A stretch of DNA of 8,052 bases from Candidatus Latescibacterota bacterium (lineage in GTDB: Bacteria > JAAXHH01 > JABIQT01). The notes beneath the pieces were generated by a model. It was not told where the DNA came from. It was given only the letters and a program-made list of their open reading frames with translations, and did not search any database. Shown piece after piece: positions 845 to 8,052 of the stretch (position 1 is its first letter; every line of letters begins with the position of its first letter). Made by a program: the position numbers and the translations under genes. Location: the NCBI GenBank assembly GCA_018667995.1, contig JABIQT010000842.1:1-8052 (forward strand). Reading direction: 5' to 3'.

Positions 845-2314
845 CTAGTCCCCAAGCCCAGCATGTCTGCACACTATCTCAATCGCTTTGACGAGTGTTT
901 TGGCGCCAAGTACCGCGTATTCTTCAATTAGATTGCCATCGGCATCCAGGGTACCCATACCCGGCCCAAGAAACATCTTCCCACTATAAATCGTAGCCGG
1001 CTCTACCCCCATGTGCTCCTGTGCGGTGACCATCGGATTGGTGTTGGCCCAGAGATCTTCCAGGTTGAAGATGGGAATACCGAAGCCCTCACCGTCCCAG
1101 GTGCGCTCGTAGTTTAGCTCGGTGCCACCCAATTGGTAGGTTTTGGCAAAGAGAATCTTATCCCGGAAACGAGCCGGTTTCATATTCTTGAATTCTTCGA
1201 CGATGATCTCATGAAAGCGATCGATGGGATCGGTCACTAGTTTGGGCTGGTCTCGTAAGACCTTCAAATAGGCCGTTAGGCCAACTATGGTATCTCTACC
1301 CGGGTCGCTGAATGTGTATACAGCTTTACCGTGCGATGACGTTTCGCCATAGCGTTGCCCTCCAAGGCCCATGCCCTTGCGAATTGGATTGATGAGTTCT
1401 TCCTTACCGATGATCAACCCCGATGCCGGTGCCCGGCCGGGCTTGTCCATGCTGTAGGTAATGATGTCACAATCGATGTCGCGAGGATCCATACCCACAA
1501 TCGGAATGGACCCACCGGTGTCCACCAGATAGGGCACGTCGTATTCCCTGGCTACTTCCGCCAGTTTCTTCAGTAGGACAGGGGCACCATTCTCATCGTG
1601 TTCGCCATGTCCATAACTGGGCGTGTCATAGCCGACCGCGGCGATTCCTGTCAGCTCTGAGGCATGGCGATACGCTGCTTTCTTCACGTTCTCGATGGTC
1701 GCGTCAGCGTCTACTTCTGTGAGTAGGGACGTAGGATTATAGCGCACACCGTGGGGTTCGTATTTGGCTCCTGCCATCCTAACGTAGAGGGTTTCCAGGT
1801 TGGCCAGGCTCTTGTTCTCCACACCTAATTCGCCACCGGAGATAGTGCGGTCAATCAGCAAATTCTTGTATTTGGGCGGAAAAGCACGGCCATATCCCCC
1901 GATCCATTCGTAGTCTTCGCCATACGGCATGATGACCCGTGCTCGGTACATGTCCCCGTGGCGCATGGTAGGCGGTGCAAATAGCGTCTCCATCGTGATA
2001 CGGATGGCTGCCTCACAGGTATTCGCAGCCGCGGCATCGTATTCATCGCCGTATACATCCTTTATTACCTCACGAAGCTGATCCTCGACCGCACGAACCG
2101 TATACGTTTTCCCGCCTCTATTGGCAGCGATGATCTCATCAAGCACATAGTCCGGCAGATTCCCAGGTCGCGCCGAGCTACCCGCATAGAGACCAATATC
2201 ATTCTTGAGCTTCGTGGTTCCCAGCTTTTCGCCGAACTTTCGCGCCTCTTCGTTGATCTGAGGCATGCTCTCATAGATCTGCTGGTACCACTGGTATTTA
2301 TACTTGGGAGGCAT
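845..2314 (-). CDS. SelA-like fold-type-I PLP-dependent enzyme, substrate unknown
   Basis: A 489-residue PLP enzyme whose closest recognisable group is the SelA/DgaE-like branch of the aspartate aminotransferase fold. The core holds VPYLVDTGGS (260-269), with a probable pyridine-nitrogen aspartate D265. Next comes DIITYSMDKPGRAPASGLIIG (283-303), where K291 is the best candidate for the Schiff-base lysine. Residues 65-75 (NRGGKTYTVRA) and the NTCEAAI stretch near 98-104 probably belong to the cofactor and phosphate-binding part. SelA itself makes selenocysteinyl-tRNA, but no selC or selB is visible here, so that role is not supported. Lyase, transaminase or racemase chemistry on a small amino compound is more likely. 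ATG 2314 has an AAGGA site eight bases upstream (2323-2327). No good promoter was seen in the 190-bp gap before it, so readthrough from the class V gene is plausible. It is the last gene of the minus-strand block. The PLP-enzyme call is firm; the subfamily is tentative. Confidence 0.8.
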   Translation of the reverse strand: MPPKYKYQWYQQIYESMPQINEEARKFGEKLGTTKLKNDIGLYAGSSARPGNLPDYVLDEIIAANRGGKTYTVRAVEDQLREVIKDVYGDEYDAAAANTCEAAIRITMETLFAPPTMRHGDMYRARVIMPYGEDYEWIGGYGRAFPPKYKNLLIDRTISGGELGVENKSLANLETLYVRMAGAKYEPHGVRYNPTSLLTEVDADATIENVKKAAYRHASELTGIAAVGYDTPSYGHGEHDENGAPVLLKKLAEVAREYDVPYLVDTGGSIPIVGMDPRDIDCDIITYSMDKPGRAPASGLIIGKEELINPIRKGMGLGGQRYGETSSHGKAVYTFSDPGRDTIVGLTAYLKVLRDQPKLVTDPIDRFHEIIVEEFKNMKPARFRDKILFAKTYQLGGTELNYERTWDGEGFGIPIFNLEDLWANTNPMVTAQEHMGVEPATIYSGKMFLGPGMGTLDADGNLIEEYAVLGAKTLVKAIEIVCRHAGLGD

Positions 2315-2407
2315 TTGCGGAATCCTTGGTTATGTGAGTCTGGCTGTTTCCAAACGGATCGTTTCGTTGCCCAACTCAATGGTACTGCACACGGAGCTAG
2401 CGCGTCC

Positions 2408-2439
2408 AATCGTAGCAGATTTGAGTCTCTGCTACGATT
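2408..2439. repeat. Perfect 12-bp inverted repeat between class V and SelA-like genes
   Basis: AATCGTAGCAGA (2408-2419) and TCTGCTACGATT (2428-2439) are exact reverse complements separated by eight bases. The pair lies in the 190-bp gap about 65 bp after the class V stop and about 95 bp before the SelA-like start. A second, offset arm pair, TCCAATC (2405-2411) and GATTGGA (2442-2448), overlaps or flanks it, so two nested pairings compete. No T-run follows on either strand. It could be a U-less terminator, an RNA-processing or stability hairpin that separates expression of the two genes, or a dyad operator. Confidence 0.7.
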
Positions 2440-2504
2440 CAGATTGGATGGAGAGACCCAATCTTATTGCAGTGTGGTGTCTATTACCTTGGAAGATAGG
2501 TTTC

Positions 2505-3650
2505 TCATGCAAGTATTGCGTCCACACAAGAAAGGGCCGCTTCAATGTCCACCATTTCGTTGTAGAGATGCGGTGAGAAGCGGACCACGTCCTGGCGGCA
2601 GGCGACCCTGATGTCGGATTCTTTGAACCGCTCCGTCACATCCGATGAGTCCAGTCCGGCAAACTGCGCGGTAACTATGGCGCTTCGCTCTGCCGGGGAC
2701 CGGGGTGACGTCACTTCCACCCCACGGTCCATCAGACCGCTGATCAGGGCGTCCGCAAGGGACTGGTTGTGGTCGAAGATTGATTCAATGCCAACATGGT
2801 TGAGGAATTCGATGGCGGAGGTAAGGCCGATGGCGCAGCCGTAGGCCATGGTACTGAACTCGAACCTGCTGGCATTTCCAGGATATACAATCTGCGTGGC
2901 ATCGATGTTCCAAATATCAGCATTGCTTCTAAACCCGACCAGACCGGGTTCGAGGGAACTGCAGAGCTGTGGAGACACATACATGATCGCCGCCCCAAAC
3001 GGCCCGCACAGCCATTTGTATCCGCCAGCAATAACCACATCAACGCCATCAGCGGGTGCGTCGATTGGAACAGCGCCGGCAGACTGTGTGGCATCGACGA
3101 CCAGAATGGCATTGTGCGCGTGAGCTGCCTCGGCAAACGCTGCCAGGTCGTAGCGCTGTCCGCTTCTGTACTCGACATGAGAAAGGGAGACCACGACCGT
3201 ATTCTCATCGATGAGGCCCATCAACGCACCAGGATCCACGTAACCTCGATGGGCTTCTGCCAATCGTATCTCACATCCGGTATGCTTCGCGACCCGTGCC
3301 CAGGGATAGACTGCCGTGGGAAAGGCAATGTCCGCCGAAACGATATTGGCGCCAGTAGGAGGCATTGCTGCCCAGGCAAGGGAACTGATTAACTCTGTGG
3401 CGCTGGATCCTACGCAGATATCGTCCGCCGTCGCACTGAATAGCCGTGCGCCTGCATCATGCAGCTCCGCGAAGACCGCCTCCTCAGCCGATTCATCAAA
3501 GTTGTTGCTACCATTTGCTGCAACGTCCTGTTGCCAGGCAATGATGGCATCACTCGCCCCTCGATACATCAGGGCCACATTGGCCGAATTGAGATAGGTG
3601 CAGGTCCGGGAGGCTGGAAAATCGGCGGCGGAGATTGAGAGTGGGTTCAT
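2505..3650 (-). CDS. Aminotransferase class V-fold PLP enzyme (cysteine desulfurase / isopenicillin-N epimerase / kynureninase-like)
   Basis: A full-length (381 residues) class V PLP enzyme. It opens with TYLNSANVALM (18-28), the typical class V N-terminal strand. GSSATELISS (81-90) is the phosphate-binding turn. SLSHVEYRSGQRYDL (155-169) carries the histidine that usually stacks on the cofactor. VVDATQSAGAVPID (184-197) supplies D186 and Q189, and AGGYKWLCGPFGAAIMYV (208-225) supplies the PLP lysine K212. The C-terminus has RFSPHLYN (357-364), the small-domain motif of epimerase and kynureninase-type members. The RxGxHCAxP active-cysteine loop of true cysteine desulfurases is not seen, so sulfur mobilisation is not the preferred reading; C-S lyase, epimerase or related side-chain chemistry is possible. 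ATG 3650 is the only start codon after the preceding in-frame stop. It lacks a clear SD, so translation initiation may be weak or structure-dependent. Its own promoter lies just past the stop of the upstream aminotransferase gene. Confidence 0.87.
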   Translation of the reverse strand: MNPLSISAADFPASRTCTYLNSANVALMYRGASDAIIAWQQDVAANGSNNFDESAEEAVFAELHDAGARLFSATADDICVGSSATELISSLAWAAMPPTGANIVSADIAFPTAVYPWARVAKHTGCEIRLAEAHRGYVDPGALMGLIDENTVVVSLSHVEYRSGQRYDLAAFAEAAHAHNAILVVDATQSAGAVPIDAPADGVDVVIAGGYKWLCGPFGAAIMYVSPQLCSSLEPGLVGFRSNADIWNIDATQIVYPGNASRFEFSTMAYGCAIGLTSAIEFLNHVGIESIFDHNQSLADALISGLMDRGVEVTSPRSPAERSAIVTAQFAGLDSSDVTERFKESDIRVACRQDVVRFSPHLYNEMVDIEAALSCVDAILA

Positions 3651-3772
3651 GGCTAGGTCATCGGATCGTCGTGTCGGTGGACGGACAAATACATCACGGT
3701 CAAGTGAATCATCTCTCTACCGGGCAGAACGAGCAAACTGTCGCGCTACTTCGGGTGCCCTGTCACTTGGAG

Positions 3773-3801
3773 CCACATGCCTCCTGAGGGGGCAGGTGTG
3801 G
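3773..3801. repeat. Bulged hairpin in the leader of the class V gene
   Basis: CCACATGCC (3773-3781) can pair with GGCA-GG-TGTGG (3791-3801), giving nine pairs with a two-base bulge and a nine-base loop. It falls between the predicted promoter (3842-3870) and the start codon at 3650, so it would form inside the roughly 185-base untranslated leader. No T-run follows, so it is not a standard intrinsic terminator. Confidence 0.35.
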
Positions 3802-3841
3802 AAGCATTCTGAAACTACGAAAAACGGCCAACGGTTGGGAT

Positions 3842-3870
3842 ATTATAGAAACGCTGATACCTAGAATCAA
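3842..3870 (-). promoter_or_regulatory. Sigma70-type promoter for the class V gene
   Basis: On the minus strand TTGATT (3870-3865) is followed after exactly 17 bases by a perfect TATAAT (3847-3842). The -35 box matches four of six consensus bases and the -10 box six of six. It begins six bases past the stop codon of the class I/II aminotransferase gene. Transcription would start near 3835, leaving a leader of about 185 bases before the ATG at 3650. The rest of the 225-bp gap holds the hairpin at 3773-3801 and no small ORF that I can support. Confidence 0.6.
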
Positions 3871-3875
3871 TCCAA

Positions 3876-5036
3876 TCAAGCCCCTGCAGCCACCCCGCCC
3901 TCTTCATCCGCTACCTGTCTCAGGACCTTGCTGATCCGCCCCAGCCCTTGCATCAGATAGTCGTGGGGAAGGCCATAGCTGATGCGTATATGATTGGGAA
4001 TTCCAAAATAGTCCCCCGGGCCAATCAGGACGGATCCGTCGCGGATAATACGTTCCACGAGCGAAACAGAGTCGATCTTCAGATTGTAACGGAGAAATGA
4101 GATGGCCGACGCCTTGGGCGGTGTCAGACTGAGTATATCCTTGTGTTCCTCGATCCATGGCTCGAAGCGGGTCCAGCCGTCCCGGATATACTGGCGAGTA
4201 CGCTCAAAAAGTGCCGACCGTACATCGGGCCTAAGTACCAGCGGAGCCAGATAGTGATTCGAGAGTTTCGCAGTGCTTATGGTTACGTACTCGTGACGCG
4301 CCCAGAGTTCTTTGAGAATGTCCTGAGGACCCACAATCCAGCCAATACGTAAACCCGGAGCACCATAGGCCTTGGACAGGCTACCGGCAGACAACACCTT
4401 GTCATACCGGCCGTAAATGGTGGGTGTAACGGCTTCACTCCCGCGTTCCGCACCCGCGTAAATCTCATCCGCCAACAGGTAAGCTCCGCTCCGGTCGGCC
4501 GCCGCAATAATAGTGTCTATCTCCGAATCCGTAAGTATCTGTCCCGTTGGGTTGTTCGGGTTGCAGATGGCAATCAGCTTAGTCTTGTCTGTAACGGCTT
4601 CATTGAGAGAGTCTACATTCAGCGCCCAGTCACGATCTGGGTCCAACGAAAAGGTCCGTCTGTCGGCATTGAGGTTGTTAGCTACGCCCCAGCCCTGCAG
4701 GTAATTTGGAACCTGAATCGCCACCTGATCGCCTGGTCGCAGCAGTGTGGAGTACACCAGGTAATTTGCCTCGATACAACCTACCGTTACGAGAACGTTG
4801 TCGGCTGTTGCACCAGGATAGTATTGGGCTATGGCCTCACGCAACTCCGGAGAACCCTCCGCATATCCATACCCCAGTTCGCTCTCCAGCATCTGATCCA
4901 ACATCGACGGATCATACGCAAGCAGCTCCTTTAGTTGAAGCGGATGTGCCCCGCTCTCGGAGAGGTTGTACTCGACCACCTGCTCCCACTCGGACATGAT
5001 GCGTTCGAGCTCGAATCGCTGAAATTGGTTTGCCAC
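3876..5036 (-). CDS. Class I/II aminotransferase-fold enzyme, capreomycidine synthase (VioD)-like
   Basis: A complete 386-residue class I/II PLP enzyme. The substrate-pocket segment LSESGAHPLQLKEL (25-38) comes first, then YGYAEGSPELREAIA (56-70). Next are CNPNNPTG (158-165), with the cofactor-binding asparagine N162, and LLADEIYAG (187-195), with D190 and Y193. SAGSLSKAYGAPGLRIGW (216-233) holds the PLP lysine K222 and phosphate-contacting R230. HIRISYG (349-355) supplies R351 for the substrate carboxylate. The S-SG-H segment together with SKAYGAPGLRIGW and YVTISTAKLSNH recalls VioD/OrfR-type enzymes, which cyclise 3-hydroxyarginine to capreomycidine; this is judged from memory of the family, not from an alignment. 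An ordinary transaminase is the alternative. The start is GTG (5036-5034), chosen because AGAAGGAG lies six bases upstream and the N-terminal fold begins directly after it. A 15-bp inverted repeat sits just ahead of that SD. Confidence 0.9.
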   Translation of the reverse strand: MANQFQRFELERIMSEWEQVVEYNLSESGAHPLQLKELLAYDPSMLDQMLESELGYGYAEGSPELREAIAQYYPGATADNVLVTVGCIEANYLVYSTLLRPGDQVAIQVPNYLQGWGVANNLNADRRTFSLDPDRDWALNVDSLNEAVTDKTKLIAICNPNNPTGQILTDSEIDTIIAAADRSGAYLLADEIYAGAERGSEAVTPTIYGRYDKVLSAGSLSKAYGAPGLRIGWIVGPQDILKELWARHEYVTISTAKLSNHYLAPLVLRPDVRSALFERTRQYIRDGWTRFEPWIEEHKDILSLTPPKASAISFLRYNLKIDSVSLVERIIRDGSVLIGPGDYFGIPNHIRISYGLPHDYLMQGLGRISKVLRQVADEEGGVAAGA

Positions 5037-6362: not shown

Positions 6363-7127
6363 TCATTCCTCAATCAAACTTGCCTTCCGACCCCCGATTG
6401 AGGGAGGCGTCATTATTCTGCGTTGCTGCTCCGATACGTCCTCATATTCTGCTGGGTCATAATAGGCACTCGACCATGACGAATGCCCAGGACTGTATTT
6501 ATACAGAAGGGACCGTCTTTCATGATTCCCAGCCCAAGTCATGGTACCGTGGACAAGAGCTTCGGTAAAGATAATCAGATCACCCGCACTTGCCTCAGGT
6601 TGCACAACGTAGTGGGCGTTTCGGTCGAATGATCGTACATCGTCCGGTAGCTCTGAAAGAAAATTGGTCTTGTGTGTTCCGGGAATACAGACGAATCCGC
6701 CATCCCCCTTGCCAGCAGGGCTAAGACAGTAGGTAAACACAGTCAAACCGTTGCGGATGATGCCGTTATGACAGTCATACCAATGATCCCCGGATACGAC
6801 GGATCCTAGCTGCATCCGTGGGCCGCCATGCAGCCGCCCTGCAGTACCTCCGCGCCGCATGAAGATGCAGTAGTCGTGGTCGATTCTGAAATGCGGTCCC
6901 AATAAATCCCTCAAATACGGTAGCGCCCTGGGGTGATCTATGAGTGCCTGCGAAGGCGAGCCCCACAGCGAAACCTGGCTTGTCCTGCGGAAATTGGTAT
7001 CATCGTACTCCCCGGCAAAGGCCTCATCGGCTAGTTCATTCAGCGTATCAACTTCGTCGGGTGTGAGTACATCTTTCACCACCAGATAGCCCTCAAGATC
7101 GAACATAAACGTCTCTTCGGGGGTCAT
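6363..7127 (-). CDS. PhyH-family (phytanoyl-CoA dioxygenase-like) Fe(II)/2-oxoglutarate oxygenase with HGG in place of HxD
   Basis: A 254-residue cytosolic non-haem iron oxygenase of the PhyH superfamily. The N-terminus FDLEGYLVVKDVLTPDEVDTL (9-29) is the typical PhyH opening. The double-stranded beta-helix core follows, with HDYCIFMRRGGTAGRLHGGP (84-103), GDGGFVCIPGTHK (141-153) and GDLIIFTEALVHGTM (182-196), then the 2-oxoglutarate arginine near RRSLLYKYSPG (204-214). H100 and H193 are the expected metal ligands. The usual acidic ligand two residues after the first histidine is missing, since the motif reads H100-G101-G102. His-x-Gly/Ala is the arrangement known in 2-oxoglutarate halogenases such as SyrB2 and WelO5, though PhyH-like proteins of unknown function may also vary here. 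ATG 7127 follows AAAGGAG by five bases. It lies 19 bp behind the SGNH gene and is almost certainly cotranscribed with it. Family is firm; substrate and reaction are unknown. Confidence 0.9.
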   Translation of the reverse strand: MTPEETFMFDLEGYLVVKDVLTPDEVDTLNELADEAFAGEYDDTNFRRTSQVSLWGSPSQALIDHPRALPYLRDLLGPHFRIDHDYCIFMRRGGTAGRLHGGPRMQLGSVVSGDHWYDCHNGIIRNGLTVFTYCLSPAGKGDGGFVCIPGTHKTNFLSELPDDVRSFDRNAHYVVQPEASAGDLIIFTEALVHGTMTWAGNHERRSLLYKYSPGHSSWSSAYYDPAEYEDVSEQQRRIMTPPSIGGRKASLIEE

Positions 7128-7146: not shown

Positions 7147-8052
7147 TTATTGTAAGTGCCCCTCTGATTGGGTCGTTCTTATCAAGTATTCCCCGTCGGA
7201 CAGATACTCCAGGAATCGCCTACTCACCTCTTGGTGACCCGCGGGAGTCCAATGTGTCCCGAACGCGGGATATCGATGTGGATTCTTCAGCTGCAATTGG
7301 TCGATCCCTTCTTCGTTCATATAGCGTGTCAGCTCAGCATTTTCGTCCTGAAGCCCCACTATGAATTGGGCCCCACGTGAAGTCACGTACGTATTGAGTT
7401 CAGACACGATCTCATAGGTGGGATCCGGAACTCGAATATGATCAGGATCGACCAGCCAGTGATATGTCCTGGCCAATCCCCGGACGAGATAGCTGGCGGT
7501 CCAGTCGTAATATTGGGCATAGAAGTAATTAATGGATGGCTGCACGGGGACGCCCTCCAACGAGAGTCTACCGTTCTCTATCGTATAATAGGGTTTGAAG
7601 TAGCCTTCAAATATCATGTTTGTGGTGTTATCGGCTTCATCGTTTATCTGGCAGAACACCAATAGTACGATATCTGGACGATATCTGTCAAAAAAGCGTC
7701 TGAGAAGGAGGAATTCCTGATCGGTGGAATAGCCACTCACCCCCATATTCATCACGTCCCAGTCGGTCAGCGCCGAATCAAGCCGATCCGTGAATCTCTC
7801 AGTCTGCTCCACGTCGAATCCCCATACGAACGAATCACCCAGAACAGCGATTCTCGGCCTATCCTTGGGGCCATGCTCGGTATCACGAAATCCATCACTA
7901 TTGTGAGTAACGGACACCGTTCGGCTGGCAGAGAATGTGCCCTCGCTCCTCTCCAATGGAAACCAACCGAGCTCCGAGTCGTATCTGTACAGCACATTTC
8001 TCTCGTCGAAGTGGCGATACAGATAATTCTTGAATACATATCGAAATATAAG
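7147..8052 (-). CDS. SGNH/GDSL-like hydrolase or acyltransferase-like protein, 5' end beyond the window
   Basis: The reading frame is open from the right window edge to the TAA at 7149-7147, so the gene starts outside the window. The first in-frame start-like codon inside is GTG 7995, but 19 coherent codons lie upstream of it (including NYLYRHFDERN), so it is probably internal. Counting from that GTG, IAVLGDSFVWG (49-59) is block I with nucleophile S55. MNMGVSGYSTDQE (82-94) is block II, FCQIND (114-119) is block III with N118, and GTHWTPAGH (246-254) is block V with H248 and H254. The usual aspartate before the histidine is not present. Such proteins hydrolyse or transfer ester-linked acyl groups, often at the cell surface; any N-terminal signal or membrane anchor would lie off the window. 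The stop is 19 bp from the PhyH start, so the two form an operon pair. Confidence 0.8.
   Translation of the reverse strand, partial: LIFRYVFKNYLYRHFDERNVLYRYDSELGWFPLERSEGTFSASRTVSVTHNSDGFRDTEHGPKDRPRIAVLGDSFVWGFDVEQTERFTDRLDSALTDWDVMNMGVSGYSTDQEFLLLRRFFDRYRPDIVLLVFCQINDEADNTTNMIFEGYFKPYYTIENGRLSLEGVPVQPSINYFYAQYYDWTASYLVRGLARTYHWLVDPDHIRVPDPTYEIVSELNTYVTSRGAQFIVGLQDENAELTRYMNEEGIDQLQLKNPHRYPAFGTHWTPAGHQEVSRRFLEYLSDGEYLIRTTQSEGHLQ

Follow-up and report, generated by a model that had tools for sequence, protein, structure and literature searches.

The window analysed here (the whole stretch of DNA, 8,052 nucleotides) spans positions 1 to 8,052 of contig JABIQT010000842.1 from a Candidatus Latescibacterota bacterium. 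It codes on its minus strand for an oxygenase of the PhyH type, whose gene, predicted active-site residues and immediate upstream neighbour are as follows.

6363 to 7127, minus strand: PhyH-type Fe(II)/2-oxoglutarate (2OG) oxygenase gene, of the HxG...E-x3-H type; intact open reading frame, 254 aa
6516 to 6518, minus strand: R204, expected ligand of the 2OG C5 carboxylate; 224 of 228 distinct family rows
6549 to 6551, minus strand: H193, predicted distal iron-binding His, in FTEALVHGT; 226 of 228 family rows, with gaps in the remaining pair
6561 to 6563, minus strand: E189, proposed replacement carboxylate four residues N-terminal of the distal His; an acid is conserved here, and HygX also has Glu
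6822 to 6827, minus strand: G101-G102, where the HxD motif has x-Asp; invariant among the 13 closest relatives, HygX also having LHGG
6828 to 6830, minus strand: H100, predicted proximal iron-binding His; His in 208 of 228 family rows
6876 to 6878, minus strand: H84, in the strand RIDHDY, ranked second as a candidate active-site residue; His in 158 of 206 HxX rows, Glu or Asp in 14
7147 to 8052, minus strand: SGNH/GDSL-type protein gene, 19 bases upstream of the oxygenase gene in the same direction and running off the contig; PF13472 at 31.7 bits, under the cut-off of 32.9

The oxygenase has an AGGAG stretch close upstream of its ATG, and its only Pfam match at 0.001 was PF05721 (PhyH), at 45.5 bits against a gathering cut-off of 22. 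Reading the minus strand from 6842 to 6810 gave gca ggg cgg ctg CAT GGC GGC cca cgg atg cag, that is AGRLHGGPRMQ, in which the codons for H100-G101-G102 occupy 6830-6822 inside RLHGGP. The carboxylate of the H-x-D/E motif, part of the canonical PhyH 2-His-1-carboxylate site, is thus absent, with G102 in its place. This agrees with an earlier note on this DNA, which had reported His-Gly-Gly instead of His-x-Asp, an H100-H193 spacing of 93 residues, and a distal histidine and 2OG arginine in place; H193 and R204 are both conserved across the 228 family rows, the exceptions being nearly all gaps. The AlphaFold2 model of the protein has a mean pLDDT of 90.4, and its DSSP assignment puts E189 in a loop between strands 184-188 and 192-196. 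Overall the sequence points to a PhyH superfamily member of a variant branch, as is HygX.

An ornithine-cyclodeaminase-type gene lies 172 bases beyond the oxygenase gene and is followed by genes for three pyridoxal phosphate (PLP) enzymes and a pseudouridine synthase. The three PLP-type genes are contiguous (845-5036, minus strand): the aminotransferase resembles guanitoxin GntC (248 bits) and capreomycidine synthase VioD (230 bits), each below its cut-off, the second is SufS/NifS-like, and the third codes for a 489-aa protein with weak matches (Aminotran_5 at 19.7 bits, under cut-off; SelA/SepCysS-like). The neighbourhood is not a conserved one: at 83 loci with relatives of the oxygenase gene, genes for the six other window proteins were absent from the vicinity, and the context therefore gives no substrate. 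The aminotransferase is itself conserved within the taxonomic order, at 65-72%, on contigs other than that of the oxygenase gene's closest relative. In genome G013 the neighbours of the relative code for a permease of amino acids and a protein of the histidine-kinase type, and at one Latescibacterota locus the relative stands beside a gene for an AAA ATPase and three further PhyH genes.

HGG as the norm of a PhyH branch

A search of 59 genomes yielded relatives of the oxygenase in 17, and all 16 genomes examined from the same phylum contained them. A scan of GTDB contigs with the single sequence as query returned no relatives; with a 13-row alignment of the closest relatives as query it returned 550 candidate stretches, the best 80 of which came mostly from metagenome-assembled genomes (MAGs) of Latescibacterota, Poribacteria and Gemmatimonadota. 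Identity to the best relative is 74-75% along nearly its full length. The oxygenase's own genome (6.06 Mb in 1165 contigs, 85% complete) holds 39 matches to it at E values up to 1e-3, about 25 diverged paralogues of the HGG branch, and 154 matches to PF05721. The last figure resembles the excess of phyH genes, mostly without known function, that has been reported in Poribacteria (PMC3909097).

HGG was the commonest proximal-histidine triplet among the 228 distinct rows (147), followed by HSG, HGS, HGA and HAS, and H100-G101-G102 was invariant among the 13 closest relatives. The conservation of a histidine with a non-acidic residue at the third position across the family rules out that the missing aspartate is due to chance or to a sequencing slip, and the predominance of HGG makes it an old, conserved state of one branch. 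HGG is the norm in this large PhyH branch, which spans Poribacteria, Latescibacterota and related MAGs.

Two PhyH domains are fused in a 591-codon frame of the same genome (L050, contig C299), and both lack the HxD acid as well as the acid four residues before the distal histidine (SGG and HGN, with Gly at -4). In L052/L164 (C36) and L055 (C418), also of this genome, the proximal histidine has been lost (SDN and YGF instead) and the Glu at -4 kept; these proteins are possibly inactive or have a single-histidine site. In Latescibacterota (L079, L081, L082, L084 and L086), three more PhyH genes follow the HGG gene within 4.5 kb, two of them being HSG/HAG types with Asp at -4.

The acid four residues before the distal histidine

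The earlier note had cautioned that another residue could supply the missing ligand. This looks right, since Glu or Asp is found at -4, four residues N-terminal of the distal histidine, where the HxD acid is missing; the residue concerned, E189, had been overlooked. A total of 331 distinct PhyH domains were classed by the residue at +2 of the proximal histidine and that at -4 of the distal histidine. With all genomes pooled, 192 of 200 proteins without the HxD acid (HxX) had an acid at -4, against 7 of 114 HxD paralogues. Specifically, in the oxygenase's own genome 25 HxX proteins had the -4 acid and 5 lacked it, the figures for HxD being 6 and 84; in the other genomes they were 167 and 3 for HxX, and 1 and 23 for HxD. 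Alignment with the branch's own profile placed an acid at -4 in 93% of 206 HxX rows (178 Glu, 14 Asp) versus 7% of 59 HxD rows. E189 was nearly invariant in a 48-row alignment and invariant among the 13 closest relatives.

Fisher tests of the -4 acid against loss of the HxD acid, which ignore kinship, gave p values of 2e-15 and 1e-25. In a tree of 118 own-genome paralogues built with the motif residues masked, the HxX proteins with the acid fell mainly into one 24-row clade (support 96) and into a second, separate 5-row clade (support 95). On this tree the group is explained by four changes, too few for significance in a sign test, and the Fisher values therefore overstate the acid swap, which rests on few independent events. 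Support for a function of E189 comes instead from the persistence of the acid as the branch diverges and from the interchange of Glu and Asp at this position, as would be expected of a working carboxylate. The acid can also have another role, given its presence in 7 of 114 HxD proteins. One own-genome paralogue (L246, contig C732) combines HRD with Glu at -4 and lies in the 5-row clade, sister to an HTG/HRG clade; it is a possible intermediate of the swap.

A second position was considered for the replacement ligand. D83, next to H84, is acid-enriched too, with an acid in 83% of HxX rows versus 5% of HxD rows. HygX has Leu and Glu at the positions of D83 and H84, and this pair was ranked second for that reason.

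The proposed iron site and its alternatives

Comparison with solved structures identified HygX as the best match by both sequence and fold. Against PDB sequences the E value was 1.3e-7 with the single sequence and 3e-30 with a profile (next family, 2e-18); Foldseek placed HygX at ranks 1-16, with Z scores of 23.3-23.9 versus 21.9 for the next family, and the model superposed on HygX with an rmsd of 2.5-2.8 Å over 210-219 residues. HygX is described as a 2OG-dependent, non-heme iron enzyme that forms the orthoester of hygromycin B, a description backed by structural evidence (PMC8234114). With HGG, Glu at -4 and HygX as the closest solved fold, the window oxygenase has the traits of a HygX-like HxG...E-x3-H branch, of which HygX is the only structurally known member found.

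We therefore favour, as the probable reading, a non-halogenating Fe(II)/2OG oxygenase of the HygX-like branch in which E189 replaces the lost aspartate, either directly or through a water. H100 and H193 are predicted to hold the iron, 2OG would chelate the iron as usual, its far carboxylate bound by R204, and E189 would take the third protein site that Gly102 leaves without the HxD aspartate. Glutamate being the longer residue, E189 could reach the iron itself as a third ligand, or, like D721 of human AspH, it could hold a water in the position left empty. Oxygen would then give a normal ferryl, which would hydroxylate or oxidatively cyclise a small substrate. More tentatively, and short of an even chance, the facial triad may have been re-wired: the iron carboxylate would have moved from +2 of the proximal histidine to -4 of the distal one as a direct ligand, in hundreds of uncharacterised oxygenases that have expanded in sponge-associated and marine candidate phyla, the paralogues with both acids (HRD with Glu at -4) being possible intermediates of the swap.

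The iron site of human AspH reads HXG...H (PMC10947486). Its iron is held by H679 and H725, and a water, W1, occupies the site of the missing carboxylate, where it is held by D721; activity was much lower in the D721A variant (PMC13168262). One 2OG oxygenase is thus known in which the -4 residue faces the empty position. The EGF-domain substrates of AspH are not halogenated by it, and thiocyanate takes a different position on its iron (PMC13168262). AspH thereby shows that an HxG...H site with an acid at -4 can be that of a hydroxylase whose vacant site takes no halide or pseudohalide.

AspH bears equally on an alternative that we consider unlikely, namely a pure two-histidine oxygenase whose vacant site is filled by a water that E189 does not help to hold, the role of E189 being structural or in binding the substrate. 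Both AspH and FIH with its Asp changed to Gly hydroxylate with Gly at this position (PMC10947486), but such a site would explain neither why the -4 acid tracks loss of the HxD acid nor why Glu and Asp interchange there.

The earlier note had inferred halogenation or a rewired hydroxylase. On the halogenase reading, chloride would bind in the vacated aspartate site and a chloro-ferryl would chlorinate a small substrate, as in SyrB2 or WelO5. HxG/HxA in place of HxD, as found here, is the textbook halogenase signature (PMC4019311), and some paralogues of the branch match TIGR01762, the model for chlorinating enzymes, weakly (best E value 1.4e-6). The window oxygenase, however, had no match to TIGR01762 at E values up to 10 and no other NCBIfam match, and no above-cut-off match to TIGR01762 was found in the 59 genomes searched. 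At -4, the position of the conserved E189 in the window oxygenase, both SyrB2 and CytC3 carry Ser (FWSTLMH and FWSNTMH), and so no acid by the vacant site; no carrier-protein or NRPS gene was found in the window. A genome with about 25 HxX paralogues would moreover hold an improbable number of halogenases. The closest solved relative, HygX, carries the same LHGG motif and is an orthoester-forming oxygenase. Together with the AspH precedent, these observations leave the halogenation inference unsupported, and we regard a halogenase here as highly improbable.

A degenerate or catalytically dead paralogue is likewise highly improbable: the loss of the proximal histidine in some own-genome paralogues (SDN, YGF) indicates that decay occurs in the expansion, but this protein retains H100, H193 and R204, all conserved in the family, its reading frame is intact, the model is confident and the 75%-identical relative in G013 keeps every motif.

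Comparison with known systems

Human PHYH and EctD share the PhyH fold, the distal histidine and the arginine with the window oxygenase; they differ in keeping the HxD acid (HQD in PHYH, HSD in EctD) and in having no acid at -4, where PHYH has Pro (FFHPLLIH). The halogenases SyrB2 and CytC3 have a related fold and likewise lack the HxD acid, but act on carrier-protein substrates and have their own model in TIGR01762. WelO5 and BesD were not among the PDB sequence matches listed, which for the profile were the best 60. AspH resembles the window oxygenase in its HXG...H site, in carrying an acid at -4 (D721, the distal histidine being H725) and in being a hydroxylase, not a halogenase; it differs in lying outside the PhyH family, the only one matched here.

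In genome mining, HxG/HxA is often taken as a sign of halogenation, to which the large family described here is probably an exception. The residue four before the distal histidine offers a cheap test: it is acidic in this protein as it is in HygX and AspH, and Ser in SyrB2 and CytC3. Should E189 be a true ligand, the family would show that a metal ligand has moved in nature, and it would provide active sites to compare with those of the halogenases.

HygX (PDB 4XC9, 4XCA with Ni and 2OG, 4XCB, and 4ZPI with Fe) comes closest, sharing the LHGG, the Glu at -4 (within NEALMHGT in HygX, where it is E202 by chain position), the 2OG arginine and the fold. It differs in sequence (about 21-22% identity) and in having Glu in place of H84, and no aminoglycoside biosynthesis neighbourhood was found in the window. 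Hygromycin B is not known to contain a halogen, and the abstract of the HygX structure paper reportedly mentions variation in metal coordination in the enzyme. In our view it is the acid swap across the family that merits a specialist's attention, the individual oxygenase itself belonging to the known, HygX-like kind.
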